In this document: piece after piece, positions 6,636 to 40,223 of the stretch
Position numbering within the stretch: position 1 is the first letter of the stretch
How the letters are laid out: every line of letters starts with the position of its first letter
Assembly: GCF_000317065.1 (NCBI RefSeq)
Contig: NC_019701.1
Span: forward strand, 434,001-498,000
Source: Pseudanabaena sp. PCC 7367
GTDB taxonomy: Bacteria > Cyanobacteriota > Cyanobacteriia > Pseudanabaenales > Pseudanabaenaceae
Reading direction: 5' to 3'
DNA: 64,000 bases
Program-made: the position numbers and the translations under genes
Notes under the pieces: generated by a model
Seen by the model: the letters and a program-made list of their open reading frames with translations, nothing else
Database searches by the model: none
What the model was told of the DNA's origin: nothing

Positions 6636-7061
6636 ATGGCAAGAAAAGTTGTAGCAATTATTAAGCTGGCGATCCAGGCTGGTAAGGCGAACCCCGCGCC
6701 ACCGATCGGCCCAGCACTGGGGCAGCATGGCGTTAATATTATGATGTTCTGCAAGGAATATAACGCCAAAACCGCTGACAAAGCTGGCACTGTGATTCCG
6801 GTTGAGATCTCTGTCTATGAAGATCGCAGCTTTACCTTTATTCTCAAAACCCCACCCGCATCTGAGTTAATTAAAAAGGCGGCCGGGATTAATAGTGGTT
6901 CGAGCGAACCCAACCGGGTAAAAGTTGGCTCAATTACCAAAGCCCAACTCAAAGAGATCGCCGAGACCAAAATGCCTGACCTCAATGCCAATGATATTGA
7001 TGCAGCGATGAATATTGTGGCGGGGACGGCTAGTAATATGGGCGTGACGATCGCCGAATAG
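6636..7061 (+). CDS. rplK: 50S ribosomal protein L11
   Basis: L11 forms part of the GTPase-associated centre with 23S rRNA and contacts L10/L12. The hallmark N-terminal text [20 protein letters not shown], followed by [14 protein letters not shown], and the C-terminal RNA-binding domain ([23 protein letters not shown]) are intact over 141 residues. It heads the L11-L1-L10-L12 cluster; a separate promoter in the 295-base gap after nusG is plausible. Confidence 0.97.
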
Positions 7062-7203
7062 CTTGGCTCAGTAAATTTGATCGATCGTAGCGATCGTTTA
7101 GATTTATCAATTTTCCATTTTCTTGATTTTCAATCAACTGTTAACCATAGTGGGGGAGAGGCTGATTAGCTTCGCTATCTAACCCCAAGGAGAATACAAA
7201 TCA

Positions 7204-11304: not shown

Positions 11305-13923
11305 TTAGCCAGGGGTTGGTTGAGCTGATGGGGCAGATTGGGGATCTAACTCAGGGCGATCGCTTAGCTCTGGGCGATTCTCTCGATCGATATCTGGTTC
11401 AGTATTTGGGTTGGCAATTGGATCGGGCTGGGCGGTTGTTGTGCCACCAGCTATTTTCAACATTTTCAAGCATTCGCCAGTTTGAATATCCCAGAGCCGA
11501 ATTGTTTGATCATAGCTGCCACTAGCCAGAATTTGGCCATCGGGACTAAAGGTAGTTGCAAAAGCAGGTTGAGTATGACCTACCAGGGTAGCTAAACAAT
11601 CGCCATTACTGCTGTGGCGTAGCTTGATACTGCCATCATTATTACTACAGGCAAAGACCTTGCCATCAGGACTGAACTCGATCGCCATCAGCTCGGTTGT
11701 ATATTCTGAATGGTTGCCACAATTTAGCTGGGAGCCAGGGTTTTCAACCAGCTTGGCCAAGTCCTGCAAATTATTACCCAGTGCGATCGATCGGCCTGAA
11801 TAACTAGAATCAGCTAAATCATCTAAACCACTAGCTAAAATACCAGTTTGAGCCATGCCCAAAGGCGATCGCTGCGGCAGAATCTCTTGCAGATAAGCTT
11901 GCCAGATCGGCAGGTGGGCAAAATCACTACCGGGGCGATCGAGTTGTAATTGTCGCAAGAGGGTAAGTATATTTTCTTGGGCATAGCCAGGATTTTGCTG
12001 AGATTGGCTAAATCGGCACAGAATTTCGCTTAACTTATTCCCCAGGCTCCTGGTCGAGCCAAATTGGGCAGTTAGCTTGGTTAATAATGGCTCAATTATG
12101 GCTAGCGGCAGCTGAGGTGACTGTGGTAACTCGATCTCATCTATCTCGATCGCTGGGGTCAATGAGGTGGGATAGTAAAGCGCAAACTCAACCAAGAATT
12201 CATCGCGCTGCTGAGTGATCGCTGCATACGCTGCTTCAATCACCAGGTTGGTCACATATTTATCTATGATCCTGGGTAGGCTAAAACCATGCTTCTGCTT
12301 GGCAATTAGCGATCGCCACCGCAAGGCCGTAATTGCCTCAAGTAACTCTGCATGGCTAGTAACTGGTCGCATCACCTGCCCCAATTGCTCAACCGTAACT
12401 GGTGATGGCAAGATTGCCAGCCAATACATGACCCGTTGCTCCAGCCCGGAAAGTCGATCGTACTGTTGCATCAGCAAGTGACGCACTTCGCCAAACACGA
12501 TCGCATCCTGTGCCAAAAACTGCTCGATCGCGCCATCAAATAATTCCTGGATCGCCCTACCCACTGCCTTGAGCATTTTGGGATTGGTTTGATATTGGCT
12601 AGCTAAATTGGCGATCAACCCTGGATTATTAGTTGGATTGAGCTGTTTGAGTCTGGCTAAAATGGGCAATTGCTGAGCCGTTGCCAACTCCAGGCCACCC
12701 AACGACATCAGAGCGATCGTCTGGCTAGATTGCTCACCATTCCCAGTTGGCATCATGGTGGGCATGAGTTGATGGGGTTTTTCTCGACTGGTAAACAGTA
12801 AGCAGCTCTGGTGATTGATTTCACCCACCTGCTGAAACAAATCGCCATAGCCCTCATAGCCTGGCAGGTAAAACCCATGCCGATCGGCTGGGCGCAGGAT
12901 TGTTTCTAGCTGATCGAATATGAGCAGACAACGATGCTGCCGCAGGCAATCAAATAGCAACAGGAGCAATCGATCGGCCGGGATTGACTGATCCAATCGT
13001 GATTGGGGACTGAAGAAACCAACTAAGTCCTTTAACATATCCACCAGGGCTGGGGCATGTCGCAGCGATCGCCAGATTAAATAGTCAAATTCATCCTGAC
13101 AGCGATCGGCAATTTTTGCAGCTAATGCTGTTTTGCCCACGCCACCAAAACCCAGAGTGCCAATCAATCGAGCCTGATCCTGAATTAGCCATTGTTCTAG
13201 CTGCTGTAATTCTGGCTCCCGGCCAATAAAATCACTGGTGTCGATCGCACTGCCCCAATCCTGGCGCAAGCTGCGATCCTCTAAGTTGCCTTGGCTATGG
13301 GTTGTAGATATATAGGCATTGATCTGCTCCTCAGCCATAGTGGAATACACTTGACCGATGTTATTTAAATTTCCTGGCTCAGAATGATCGATTTTGCCAG
13401 AGACCCTTAATCGTTGCGGTTGATTTACTACCTGCTGGCCGATCGGGTTAATATTGCTGCTGCCCTGATTAGACTCAGCCCAGCCCTGCCAATTATCACC
13501 TACTAATAAGGATGGAGTTTGGGGATTACTGGGATTAAAAGTATTAGGCAGATTACCTATACTAGGGCTAAAGCCAGCACCATATTGACTAGTTTCATAA
13601 ATACTATTGGGTTCATACCCGTGCGGAGAAGGCGAACTGGTCACCAGCTTAGATGCATATCGACGCAACACCACCTGTAAATTTTTCTTGGTTACCCGCT
13701 CACCAAATGCCCGTGATAGAGTCTGCCATAACTTATAGCCCACGTCTCTAACATAGGAGGCATCATAGCCAGAATTCTCAGCGATCGCCAGATAGGTTTT
13801 ACCCTCCCAGGTTTGCCGAAATAATAGCTCTTGAATATTATTTAAACTCCTACCGGGCAAGATCGAATCAACGATCATTAATGCGTCTTCAATATTCATT
13901 AAATTATTATTTGTCTTGATCAT
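11305..13923 (-). CDS. STAND-type NB-ARC ATPase with N-terminal helix-turn-helix and two WD40 repeats
   Basis: The N terminus (residues about 10-92, IEDALMIVDSILPGRSLNNI onward) matches the helix-turn-helix module found at the start of many cyanobacterial vWA-MoxR-associated (vMAP) and STAND proteins. A low-complexity linker (95-220) leads to DFIGREPELQQLEQWL and the NB-ARC ATPase, with Walker A GFGGVGKT (258-265) and Walker B LLIFDQ (D337). After an alpha-helical arm come two WD40 repeats (about 745-830) and an acidic, Pro-rich tail. Full-length relatives carry seven or more WD40 repeats, so the sensor looks shortened. Such proteins are thought to act as signal or defence switches. No partner gene is adjacent. 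The exact role is unknown. Confidence 0.8.
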   Translation of the reverse strand: MIKTNNNLMNIEDALMIVDSILPGRSLNNIQELLFRQTWEGKTYLAIAENSGYDASYVRDVGYKLWQTLSRAFGERVTKKNLQVVLRRYASKLVTSSPSPHGYEPNSIYETSQYGAGFSPSIGNLPNTFNPSNPQTPSLLVGDNWQGWAESNQGSSNINPIGQQVVNQPQRLRVSGKIDHSEPGNLNNIGQVYSTMAEEQINAYISTTHSQGNLEDRSLRQDWGSAIDTSDFIGREPELQQLEQWLIQDQARLIGTLGFGGVGKTALAAKIADRCQDEFDYLIWRSLRHAPALVDMLKDLVGFFSPQSRLDQSIPADRLLLLLFDCLRQHRCLLIFDQLETILRPADRHGFYLPGYEGYGDLFQQVGEINHQSCLLFTSREKPHQLMPTMMPTGNGEQSSQTIALMSLGGLELATAQQLPILARLKQLNPTNNPGLIANLASQYQTNPKMLKAVGRAIQELFDGAIEQFLAQDAIVFGEVRHLLMQQYDRLSGLEQRVMYWLAILPSPVTVEQLGQVMRPVTSHAELLEAITALRWRSLIAKQKHGFSLPRIIDKYVTNLVIEAAYAAITQQRDEFLVEFALYYPTSLTPAIEIDEIELPQSPQLPLAIIEPLLTKLTAQFGSTRSLGNKLSEILCRFSQSQQNPGYAQENILTLLRQLQLDRPGSDFAHLPIWQAYLQEILPQRSPLGMAQTGILASGLDDLADSSYSGRSIALGNNLQDLAKLVENPGSQLNCGNHSEYTTELMAIEFSPDGKVFACSNNDGSIKLRHSSNGDCLATLVGHTQPAFATTFSPDGQILASGSYDQTIRLWDIQTGECLKMLKIAGGTTTAQPDPIANPNTEPDIDRENRPELSDRPELDPQSAPSAQPTPG

Positions 13924-17346: not shown

Positions 17347-20300
17347 CTAAGCCTTGGGCTGTTCCTCCGGCAACATGCACTTATCCGAATCACAACCCGC
17401 AGGCCCCGCTTCCACCAGGAACCCAGAATCATACAAACTCAATGCCGTATGGAAATCATCCGTACCACGACGCTTCAACACTGCGGCTAGCTCTTGTTCA
17501 TATTTTTCCCGATCGATCGGCTCGAATGGCAAACGCGGGAAGGTTTGCAGATCGTCAAATCTGGCCAGCAAGGCGGTGGAAATATAGCCCTGATCCCGCT
17601 CGATCGCCTCATAGATCCGCTTGCCCACCGCTTCGATTTCTGGTTCGCGCAATTCGATCGTGCTGGAGGTGTTATGGCGGGTGTAAGACTGCTGCACATT
17701 CATCCAGAAGTCCATTTGCGCCAGGGCAGAGAATTTGGAAATGTCGATCGTGTCGGCTCCTGGCAAGTCCGCCCAGGGCACCCGCACCGGAATTTCCACC
17801 AGCCATTCCGTACATCTAGGATCAAAGGGATCATTGAGCAGATTGCCATTCTCATCCTTGTCCGATTGGGAAGGCACCACATTATAGCCATAGTCAATGC
17901 AAGCCATAGCCACTGGATCATTCTTGCGGAAGGTGACCCGGCGAATGAATCGCTGTGCTTTGGGGGGATGCCAACCAGGGGACGCACCAGTCAGCAAAGA
18001 CTTAGTACCGCTGGGTTGTACGGTAGTACAGCGATTGGGACGCTTGATCCCGTGGCGATCGCAATAGTCCCACACCACCCGATGCACGGTGTCGCTCCAT
18101 TTGCGCAGGTAAGCGCTTTCCTTTTCCTTAAATTCAATCCCTGGCATCGTGGCGGGTCTGCCCTCTGCCCACCATTGCAGCCACTCCACGCCAAAGGCAT
18201 TAACAAAAAAGTCAAATAGACCAGTAAAGGAAACCCCCACGATCGGATCGAGTTGGCGCGATTCCTGGTAGCGATCTTCTGTGAATTGGTGATTCAGCAA
18301 GGTAGCCACGGATAGGGCTCCGGCGGCGAAGGCATCTGCTTGATCTTGTTCGTTGTTGGGATCGAGCTGATTAAGATGAATTTCACTGAGGTTGCAATGG
18401 AAATTACTACCGATGATTTCACCGCAGTTGTGAGCCGTGATCCCGTTGGCATCAAACCGAGCCGGACCTGGCACAGTGCAATCAAAAACCGCTGCTTCAC
18501 CATCGGCCTCGATCGAGGCGATCGTCACTGCGAAGCGTTCCCGATTAAAATTGCGCTTATAGCCAGATAGCACCTGCTGGAGGCGTTCTGCCTTGGTCGC
18601 ATCCTGGAAACCGATCACATCCTGGAACACAGGAATATTATCGTTAGCAATTACTAGCTCATGCTGTGCCTGACAGAAATATTCTGCTAGCTTACGGTTG
18701 GAGTCTGGCAACTGCCTAAAACCAGCGGGGCGGCGATTCTGGTAAATGGTGCTAGCAATGCCCACTCTCAGCAACATTCTCTGTACTGCTTCTAGGAGTG
18801 GCAGATTACTTTGAGCCAAACGAATACTTACGCCCTTTGCTTGACTACCCTGAACACTGCCATCCGCATCAAACAAGCCGCGCAGGAACCCTTGATAGAA
18901 TTCATAGCTGGATTGCTCAACCCCAGGTGTGAGCGTTTTATGGCTTTGGGTAATGCCATACTGGTTGGCCAGCTTGGCTAATCCGGCTGAACCAATTTCA
19001 TCGTATTTATTTTGCTGGTGATAAATTCCGGCCAAGTTAGGCGCAGTTGCTACATTACTCTTAACCAAGTCAAGGGCATATTCATTCATCTCCGCTTGAG
19101 TGTCGCCCCAGTAGCGCAACTTCGCTTGATGGGAATAGCTGGCCGCATGGCTAGAGAAACAACCATCGCCGATCAAATTACCCAACAACCAACCTTCGGC
19201 AAATGTGCCCATGCCATGCCAGGGTTGCAAGTCACGATGGTTATGAATCAAAATCCGATCGCCCTGGTTTAATGCCCCTGCCTCAACCCATTGGCTATAT
19301 TGTTGCTTCTGGGTTTGGGCTGTGACTTTGAGGAGTTGATGATTGCCGGTCAGGCGCAGGGTATAGCCTTCCTTGGTGGTTAGTTTCACCACAGGTTTAA
19401 CGCCAGTAAAAAAGAAGCCTTCTGGAGTAGTGCTGAATAGCTCACCATTGACATAGGTGCTGTGTTGCACACCAACTAAATCCTTGACTTGCCTTGCACC
19501 ATTGCCAGTATGCACCCAGGTTTCGGCAGTAACACAAGGATTTAAGCCATAACGCTCTAGTCTATGCTCTAGCTCAGTTTCAGGCATATCGGGATAATGC
19601 GATCGCAACCATGCTTTAGCATTCTCTAAGCCCTGACTATAGACCTGCATGAATTCTTTTCTTAGTTCAGGCGTGGCTAAGATATCTACATTTGACCTGG
19701 CGATCGCTTCACCTGCCCATTGGATTGCCCCTTCACCGGAATAATACTGCTGACGCACCGCATCAACACATTCCTGCTCGGTTGGTTTGTGGTGGTAAAC
19801 GCGGGTGTGGTTGGCCATGCGCAGGGCATCCCGCTCCGGATCGATCCGCCAGTTGCCCGATTCATCCTGCTGCCAAAGGTTCAACTTAGCTCCAGCAAAC
19901 AATTCATCATCGCTGGCTCCCTGGCGCATTCCGGCACTCCGGCGAATATTTCCAGCCACAATGCAAACCGCCGCTTCATCGATCAAAATGCAACATTCTA
20001 CCGAGGTGAGCTTGCGACCGATCGCCTTGTTCAAAACCCTGGCACACCGGTTATAGAGACTGGGCAGCTTGACCGGATTAGCTACGCCACCAAATCCCTT
20101 AAGCTGTTCACCGGAAGCACGCACATCACTCAAATCCACCGTAACTTGCACTTCGCCAGAAAAGCGATCGTCACTGGAAAGTTCTAGTATGGTTTGATAG
20201 GACTTAACCCAACCATGCCGACTGTCGCCCACATAGATCGTGACCCGATCGCCATTCACTTCTACTTCGGTGGTTTCGCGGCGAGCCTGGGCAGGCGTAG

Positions 20301-20808
20301 AACCCACTTCACCGGCCAGGGAAACATTGAGGCGATTGCAAATTACTGGCAACTGACTAATATATTTTTCTTCCAGCACTGCGCCTGTACCGCAGCCCAT
20401 CATCGCCAGATCCATCATCAGGCCAAAGGCACGCCAATCAACTACATTGGTGCTGGTACAGTTATAGCCGCCGGAAAAATTACTGGGTTGGGCGATCCAA
20501 TCAGTACCACCGACCCACAGCCAACGCCCAGAGGACAAGGCCTTTAATTGCCGCTGCATCCTGGAAATGAGCGCTACTTCCTCATCATTGAGATTACCCA
20601 ATTGTTTGAGGCTGCTAATGGTGCGATCGCAAACTTGCTGCCAACTTTCGCGCCGATCGCCAATCTTACGGCTATAGGTTCTAAAAAACACTGGATTAGC
20701 TACCGGGGCATCTTCCGGGAAGGCATTAGATGTATTGGCCTTAGTATTATCAGACTTACTCAGATTGGCCTGAGCATTGGCTTTGGTGCGATCGATTTCC
20801 TGAACCAT
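17347..20808 (-). CDS. nrdJ: adenosylcobalamin-dependent ribonucleotide reductase with intein
   Basis: This class II enzyme reduces ribonucleotides to deoxyribonucleotides using a B12 radical. The 1153-residue product is a 783-residue reductase interrupted by a 370-residue intein (residues 425-794). Reductase landmarks are GGTDWIAQPSNFSGGYNCTS, AMMGCGTGAVLEE, VAGNIRRSAGMRQG, the active-site motif NP|CGE split by the intein, PSGTKSLLTGASPGWHPP, and the C-terminal redox pair in GCDSDKCMLPEE. AGAGGA precedes the ATG at a good distance. Correct splicing is needed to rebuild the catalytic loop. The upstream 636-base gap has an 11-bp triple repeat. No class I genes are in the window. Confidence 0.95.
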   Translation of the reverse strand: MVQEIDRTKANAQANLSKSDNTKANTSNAFPEDAPVANPVFFRTYSRKIGDRRESWQQVCDRTISSLKQLGNLNDEEVALISRMQRQLKALSSGRWLWVGGTDWIAQPSNFSGGYNCTSTNVVDWRAFGLMMDLAMMGCGTGAVLEEKYISQLPVICNRLNVSLAGEVGSTPAQARRETTEVEVNGDRVTIYVGDSRHGWVKSYQTILELSSDDRFSGEVQVTVDLSDVRASGEQLKGFGGVANPVKLPSLYNRCARVLNKAIGRKLTSVECCILIDEAAVCIVAGNIRRSAGMRQGASDDELFAGAKLNLWQQDESGNWRIDPERDALRMANHTRVYHHKPTEQECVDAVRQQYYSGEGAIQWAGEAIARSNVDILATPELRKEFMQVYSQGLENAKAWLRSHYPDMPETELEHRLERYGLNPCVTAETWVHTGNGARQVKDLVGVQHSTYVNGELFSTTPEGFFFTGVKPVVKLTTKEGYTLRLTGNHQLLKVTAQTQKQQYSQWVEAGALNQGDRILIHNHRDLQPWHGMGTFAEGWLLGNLIGDGCFSSHAASYSHQAKLRYWGDTQAEMNEYALDLVKSNVATAPNLAGIYHQQNKYDEIGSAGLAKLANQYGITQSHKTLTPGVEQSSYEFYQGFLRGLFDADGSVQGSQAKGVSIRLAQSNLPLLEAVQRMLLRVGIASTIYQNRRPAGFRQLPDSNRKLAEYFCQAQHELVIANDNIPVFQDVIGFQDATKAERLQQVLSGYKRNFNRERFAVTIASIEADGEAAVFDCTVPGPARFDANGITAHNCGEIIGSNFHCNLSEIHLNQLDPNNEQDQADAFAAGALSVATLLNHQFTEDRYQESRQLDPIVGVSFTGLFDFFVNAFGVEWLQWWAEGRPATMPGIEFKEKESAYLRKWSDTVHRVVWDYCDRHGIKRPNRCTTVQPSGTKSLLTGASPGWHPPKAQRFIRRVTFRKNDPVAMACIDYGYNVVPSQSDKDENGNLLNDPFDPRCTEWLVEIPVRVPWADLPGADTIDISKFSALAQMDFWMNVQQSYTRHNTSSTIELREPEIEAVGKRIYEAIERDQGYISTALLARFDDLQTFPRLPFEPIDREKYEQELAAVLKRRGTDDFHTALSLYDSGFLVEAGPAGCDSDKCMLPEEQPKA
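18427..19536 (-). other. intein with LAGLIDADG homing endonuclease, in nrdJ
   Basis: The intein begins with Cys (CVTAETWVHTGNG, block A) and ends ANGITAHN before the +1 Cys of the extein. Block B is GYTLRLTGNHQLLKV with the T-x-x-H pattern. Two dodecapeptide endonuclease motifs are intact: WLLGNLIGDGCF (about 540-551) and FLRGLFDADGSV (641-652), both with the acidic metal ligand. Terminal His-Asn and the following Cys are the residues needed for splicing. The extein junction lies between Pro424 and catalytic Cys795. All required residues are present, so both splicing and endonuclease activity look possible. Confidence 0.95.
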
Positions 20809-38840: not shown

Positions 38841-38965
38841 AATCTTTGCAAATCACAAACAGCATTGCGATCGGTAATCTTGGGGGAAAGTAGGGTGAAA
38901 GTCCTACGCTGTGCCGCAGCCGTTACAGCCGGAATGCCTCATGAATTCTACCTTTAGCCCTGTTT
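38841..38965 (+). promoter_or_regulatory. cobalamin riboswitch before cbiX
   Basis: The conserved core is visible at 38884-38938: GGGAAAGTAGGGTGAAAGTC, then CTACGCTGTGCCGCAGCCGT, then TACAGCCGGAATGCC. The GTGAAA-TC strand pairing (TAGG/CCTA), the GCTGTGCCGCA block and the AGCCGGAATGCC B12-box are the standard cobalamin-riboswitch elements. It looks compact. The limits are approximate. It lies 30-150 bases before the cbiX start; B12 would lower cbiX expression. Confidence 0.88.
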
Positions 38966-38996: not shown

Positions 38997-40223
38997 ATGT
39001 CATCAATTACTGAAAACAACAACAATACGGCTAGCGCAGCAAATACAGCTAGCATCAAAAATCAAACTGCGATTCAAGCCAAAGCCCAAAATCACGATCG
39101 CCCCGATCAAGACTTTGAACCACCCGCAATCAAGTCTGCGTCCAACATTTCCCTTACCCCGCTGCCAGAATCGAAGCCGTTGCTCCTGATTGGTCATGGC
39201 ACCAGGGATGAAAATGGGCGACAGACATTTTTAGACTTTGCTGCTGCCTATCAAGAATGCGATCGATCGCGCCCGGTGGTGCCCTGTTTTTTGGAGCTAA
39301 CCGAACCAACGATTATGGCGGGGGTAGAGCAATGTATTGCCCAGGGCTATGATGACATGACTGCAATGCCGTTGTTATTATTCGCGGCTCGGCACAGCAA
39401 GTTTGATGTCACCGCCGAACTCGATCGCATTCAAGCTAAATACCCCCAGGTGAATTTTCGCTATGGTCGGCATTTGGGGATCACAGCCAATATGATTCAG
39501 CTCTGGCGCGATCGCTTGGCTCAGTTGGATTCCCTGGCAGCTAACCCCAGGCAAATCAGCCGCGAAGATACAGTTATTTTAGTGGTGGGGCGTGGTTCAA
39601 GCGATCCTGATGCCAATAGTGATGTGTGCAAGTTGGCACGGATTTTATGGGAAGGCAGTGGCTATAAAAACGTAGAGGTTTGCTTTATTGGTATCACCCA
39701 TCCCCGTTTGGAAGAAGGCTTTCGCCGTGCAATGTTCTATGCCCCCAAGCGGATTATTGTCTTGCCCCACTTTTTGTTCACCGGCGCATTGATCAAAAAA
39801 ATTGCCACGATCACCCAGCAGATGCGCGAGCAGTATATTTCTACTGATAATCCTTCTGAGGGCAGCCTATTAGAAATTACTGGTTTGGATGAAATTGGCA
39901 TCGATCCCAAGTTATTTACAATGGTGCGCGATCGTGAAATTGAAGCTCAGCAAGGCCAGGTGCAGATGAATTGCCAGATGTGTAAATTCAGGATGGCGGC
40001 GATCGGTAGCTCTGGCAATGGGCACAGCCATGATCATCACTCCCATAATCATAACCACCATGATCACGGCCATAGTCACGACCATCACCCCGGCCACTCG
40101 CATCACCACCACGATCCCCAGGCTGGTCATAGTCACAATGCTGGTCACGATCATGGCATTGCCTGGCAGGATATTTACCAAGAGCCCGAAGCCTATCACG
40201 ATCGCGCTTGGCAGGTGCCCTAA
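38997..40223 (+). CDS. cbiX: sirohydrochlorin cobaltochelatase with His-rich tail
   Basis: CbiX inserts cobalt into sirohydrochlorin, the entry step of B12 synthesis by the anaerobic route. The two-lobe chelatase is present: [20 protein letters not shown] with His67, the second catalytic-site segment [18 protein letters not shown] (His133), and a second half [20 protein letters not shown] and [16 protein letters not shown]. The C-terminal region has MNCQMC (Cys326, Cys329), a MxCxxC iron-sulfur ligand motif, and a run with 22 histidines (about 343-387) likely to store or buffer cobalt. The ATG follows GAAGGAG. The first 50 residues are low complexity. A cobalamin riboswitch precedes it. Confidence 0.9.

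Follow-up and report, generated by a model that had tools for sequence, protein, structure and literature searches.

The B12-dependent ribonucleotide reductase (RNR) of Pseudanabaena sp. PCC 7367 is interrupted by what is, to judge from its sequence and predicted structure, almost certainly a canonical intein of class 1 with a LAGLIDADG homing endonuclease. The insert, which very probably belongs to allele rir1-b, sits between Pro424 and Cys425 of this monomeric enzyme. The host gene lies at positions 17347–20808 of the minus strand of the window (the whole stretch of 64,000 nucleotides that was analysed, with a GC content of 46.0 %). It is a stop-free open reading frame that encodes a ribonucleoside-triphosphate reductase (RTPR) precursor of 1153 amino acids with the intein in frame, and it gives the single RTPR protein match in a genome of 4,885,680 bases on two contigs. 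The intein itself comprises 370 residues, from C1 to H369-N370, corresponding to precursor residues C425 to N794 and to window positions 18427–19536 (−). The N-extein (residues 1–424; 19537–20808, −), delimited by alignment to the Lactobacillus leichmannii enzyme (PDB 1l1l), ends in YGLNP. Cys1 thus directly follows RYGLNP, and the intein closes with ITAHN before the C-extein (17347–18426, −), whose sequence starts with CGEIIGSNFHC. The earlier note had given the same coordinates, residue numbers and NP/CGE junction, all of which are exact.

Profile searches with the insert recovered the Pfam families Intein_splicing (PF14890, 2.6e-11, over the cut-off) and LAGLIDADG_3 (PF14528, 8e-23) as well as the NCBIfam model intein_Nterm (TIGR01445). 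All the hallmarks of a class-1 intein are present, namely C1, block B from T63 to H66, the terminal H369-N370 pair and a cysteine at position +1 of the C-extein. In all 24 aligned members of this intein family at the NP/C site, hereafter called type A, the residues C1, T63, N65, H66, D352, C353, H369 and N370 are invariant. They include those of block B (T63-G-N-H66; 19339–19350, −) and the four key positions D352, C353, H369 and N370 of blocks F and G (VFDCTVPGPARFDANGITAHN; 18427–18489, −). The two LAGLIDADG motifs, LLGNLIGDG with D124 (19162–19188, −) and FLRGLFDADG with D223 (18859–18888, −), are likewise preserved. Both aspartates occur in 19 of 19 full-length relatives, while in the five relatives with a degenerate homing endonuclease (HEN) D124 is lost and the second motif is lost or eroded. 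The claim that all splice residues and both nuclease motifs are intact is thereby borne out by the invariant residues of the 24-intein alignment. Since the frame is free of stops, the splice blocks are intact and 30 relatives share identical boundaries, the comparison rules out a chance resemblance to an intein.

The AlphaFold model of the intein, for which an alignment of 31 sequences was supplied, has a pLDDT of 90.5, and this confident prediction shows a Hint fold into which a LAGLIDADG nuclease with two motifs is inserted. Its best matches in the PDB are homing inteins, TliVMA (7qsu, Z 28.3) and PI-PfuI (1dq3, Z 28.2). The Hint part superimposes on the DnaB intein 1mi8 with an rmsd of 1.6 Å over 132 residues (Z 20.7), and an I-DmoI-like fold occupies approximately residues 112–330 of the model. 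TliVMA, PI-PfuI and PI-SceI (7qsu, 1dq3 and 1ef0) share with the window intein the Hint domain carrying an inserted LAGLIDADG endonuclease (Z 24–28, VIA), but they reside in other host genes and are only 14–18 % identical.

The host enzyme scores 762 bits against the RTPR family TIGR02505, well above the family cut-off of 340, while the model for dimeric NrdJ (TIGR02504) gave no match to the precursor at an E-value of 0.001. A dimeric host of the Thermotoga type was accordingly rejected, and the comparison with Thermotoga NrdJ drawn in the earlier note has to be replaced: by these family matches the host is a monomeric adenosylcobalamin-dependent RTPR of the L. leichmannii type. When the spliced sequence is aligned to 1l1l with phmmer, its Cys425 pairs with Cys408 and its Cys435 with Cys419, and the catalytic residues of the exteins are intact. 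In the L. leichmannii enzyme Cys408 is the thiyl-radical residue and Cys419 belongs to the redox pair. The +1 cysteine (C795 in precursor numbering and C425 after splicing; 18424–18426, −) is consequently, as aligned, both splice nucleophile and radical cysteine. This confirms two points made previously, that the insertion directly precedes the catalytic cysteine and that a single residue serves both functions.

The position is striking but very probably known already. A 2014 survey (PMC4071816, Table 3) lists rir1-b in Pseudanabaena sp. PCC 7367 (YP_007101092.1), Pseudanabaena PCC 6802, Calothrix PCC 6303, Synechococcus elongatus and many other bacteria. The entry for PCC 7367 is likewise an intein of an RNR large subunit, very probably at the same locus, and we know of no difference between the two. 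The window intein is thus very probably InBase allele rir1-b, and the suggestion that its insertion site might be new is not supported. As to membership in this allele, the site in the window is exact and that of the SPbeta intein is the homologous residue, while Table 3 of the survey prints no site sequence. The SPbeta bnrdE intein (Bacillus phage SPBc2, NC_001884) is also of class 1, about 26 % identical over 370 amino acids and located directly before the homologous cysteine (SNL/CSEV) of an RNR, but it is distant in sequence and its host is a class Ib NrdE.

In a sample of 386 cyanobacterial genomes, 144 had an RTPR match. Type-A inteins occupy the LNP/CGE bond in 20 RTPR genes among these 144 genomes, five of the 20 being HEN-degenerate, and their occurrence was again patchy among 29 close genomes. 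The earlier note had proposed a comparison with strains that lack the intein, and such strains are readily found: intein-free LNPCGEI alleles are common and include two genomes of the same family (G193 and G282), while a third genome of that family (G346) carries an insert elsewhere in RTPR, at site 290/291. A second lineage, type B, was found at the same LNP/CGE bond of the same gene in seven RTPR genes of the 386-genome sample (for example at locus L089, probably from Nodularia spumigena CCY9414). It differs from the window intein in being a separate lineage of about 30 % identity, with a leucine in place of Cys353.

The type-A family is confined neither to RTPR nor to cellular genomes. In genome G296 an intein with 60 % identity lies at the TNP/CGE site of a dimeric NrdJ (TIGR02504; locus L078, 1255–4353, −), which by its sequence places the family of the window intein in a further RNR subclass. 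On viral contigs, type-A relatives of 56–59 % identity are found at LNP/CGEIIG of RTPR-type enzymes, and more distant inteins occur at NP/C of other viral-contig RNRs. The genes beside the RNR genes on two of these contigs match phage families such as SSB, ParB-like proteins, methylases and helicases. Four of the viral inteins are nested among the type-A inteins of cyanobacteria, on a branch with full support (SH-aLRT 100). Moreover, maximum-likelihood trees of 22 inteins and of their exteins each reject the topology of the other (delta lnL 360 and 277, with AU values of 9e-5 and 3e-64). The AU tests and the viral nesting together point to horizontal spread of the intein relative to its host gene, and the relatives on viral contigs hint at a way in which such inteins could move. 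The 11-residue segment at 424/425 ranks in the top 13 % of the protein by conservation, and such a conserved insertion region, combined with the conflict between intein and extein trees, is the pattern expected of homing into a conserved site. A simple empty-site repeat was sought in the window and none was found.

These features suggest the following course of events. After translation, Cys1 would form the N-terminal thioester, which the +1 cysteine would attack to give a branched intermediate. Asn370 would then cyclise with the assistance of His369 and the exteins would be joined. Splicing would in this way restore the NPCGEI loop and free the catalytic thiol, and the precursor would be inactive until then. 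At the DNA level, the nuclease is predicted to cut intein-free alleles within the sequence that encodes the invariant NPCGEI loop, so that the element would spread by homing, also by way of phages. The intein would persist because its imprecise loss would destroy the sole RNR detected in the cell. Inteins are known to prefer conserved positions and active sites (PMC2814812; PMC5784728), and the present case may serve as a clean example of why they settle there: the target DNA is near-invariant, a +1 nucleophile stands ready and only precise loss is tolerated.

How far the cell depends on this intein follows from its RNR complement. When the genome was searched with PF02867, PF00268 and PF13597, neither subunit of a class I enzyme, large or small, came to light, nor did a class III enzyme (NrdD). 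PF02867 detects class I as well as dimeric class II enzymes and gave no match to the RTPR of the window, RTPR being covered by the separate family search. Since no other RNR was found, splicing appears to be obligatory for dNTP synthesis. An intein that is non-functional or only cleaves, in a cell that relies on another RNR, can for the same reason be given practically no weight, all the more as the splice residues and the catalytic residues of the exteins are all intact. It is also unlikely, if less drastically so, that the homing endonuclease of the window copy is dead and the intein inherited vertically only. Five relatives at the LNP/CGE site have indeed lost or eroded their HEN motifs, but the window copy keeps D124, D223 and every residue conserved among the full-length relatives, and the endonucleases of relatives are under purifying selection. 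In close pairs of relatives both parts of the intein evolve under constraint, with omega values of 0.04–0.14 (0.07–0.14 for the HEN part), whereas in one pair with degraded HENs omega reaches 0.25 in the HEN part against 0.05 in the splicing part. These values were measured among relatives only, dS being saturated between the window intein and its nearest relatives. The window intein is thus probably an ordinary, mobile and functional one.

Another possibility is that the intein has come to serve the cell as a regulatory switch; the earlier note had asked whether splicing conditions could gate the supply of dNTPs. Redox- or stress-sensitive splicing, for instance through a disulfide of Cys1 or Cys+1 with Cys353 of block F, would delay the maturation of the RNR. 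The dependence of dNTP synthesis on splicing, the half of this proposal that stands, speaks in its favour, as does the invariance of Cys353 (18478–18480, −), which is found in all 24 type-A inteins, the HEN-degenerate ones included, and in most viral relatives. Disulfide-based redox control of splicing has moreover been documented for a mycobacterial DnaB intein (PMC6195587). However, no evidence of conditional splicing itself was found. The type-B intein makes do with a leucine at the position of Cys353 and close relatives are viable without any intein, and we therefore consider conditional splicing improbable. The patchy distribution, the conflict between trees and the occurrence of both intact and degenerate HENs fit a selfish element, and the invariant block-F cysteine may be merely structural. 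The ordinary homing intein therefore remains the preferred reading. Since the cell seems to rely on protein splicing for all its dNTPs, the intein nevertheless offers a simple system in which conditional splicing could be studied.

The bond occupied by the window intein is one of several insertion sites in the sampled RTPR genes, the others being 290/291 (GNIRR/S), 434/435 (NFH/C), 564 (VQPSG) and 139/140. The insert at 139/140 in locus L076 is a group II intron according to Rfam. Inteins at 434/435 (NFH/C435) occur in L098, L099, L105 and other RTPR loci. Since this separate site directly precedes C435, the equivalent of C419 and the second catalytic cysteine, the alignments indicate that inteins use two catalytic cysteines of RTPR as their +1 residue. 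Stop-containing inserts are found after codon 426 (426/427), two codons from the intein site, in loci L100 to L104; most measure 250–320 nt and that of L101 about 1150 nt. A search of two of them (L102 and L103) with Rfam returned no group I intron match; a group I intron in an RNR gene of Nostoc punctiforme is mentioned in a review that cites Meng et al. 2007. A HEARO RNA (107 bits) lies at 6858–7109 (+) of L103, near its insert-bearing RTPR gene. On two viral contigs (L112, 2435–8236, and also L113) the RTPR frame, 1933 amino acids long in L112, contains four in-frame inserts, at 290, 424/425, 434/435 and 564, the first of which is short in L112 (about 130 amino acids). A cyanobacterial RNR gene invaded by inteins was the subject of a 2003 paper by Liu, as cited in PMC4649490; going by that citation, it resembles the present gene in its inteins but houses several elements, whereas the gene in the window has a single one.

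All these observations could be merged into one broader picture, to which we would give little credence as a whole. The active-site loop of cyanobacterial RTPR would be a shared landing zone, with two intein lineages before the thiyl-radical cysteine, a third site before C435 (the equivalent of C419) and an intron-like insert two codons downstream. Phages would shuttle the same intein between the RNRs of hosts and viruses and between RNR subclasses, and Cys353 could render splicing redox-sensitive and so link dNTP supply to the oxidative state of the cell.

Two further features of the window deserve mention. An 872-residue protein that combines NB-ARC and WD40 domains, an NLR-like architecture, is encoded at 11305–13923 (−). 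An AdoCbl-II (B12) riboswitch at 38868–38947 (+; 42.8 bits) is located just upstream of a gene for a CbiX-type cobalt chelatase (38997–40223), which fits a cell whose sole detected RNR is B12-dependent.
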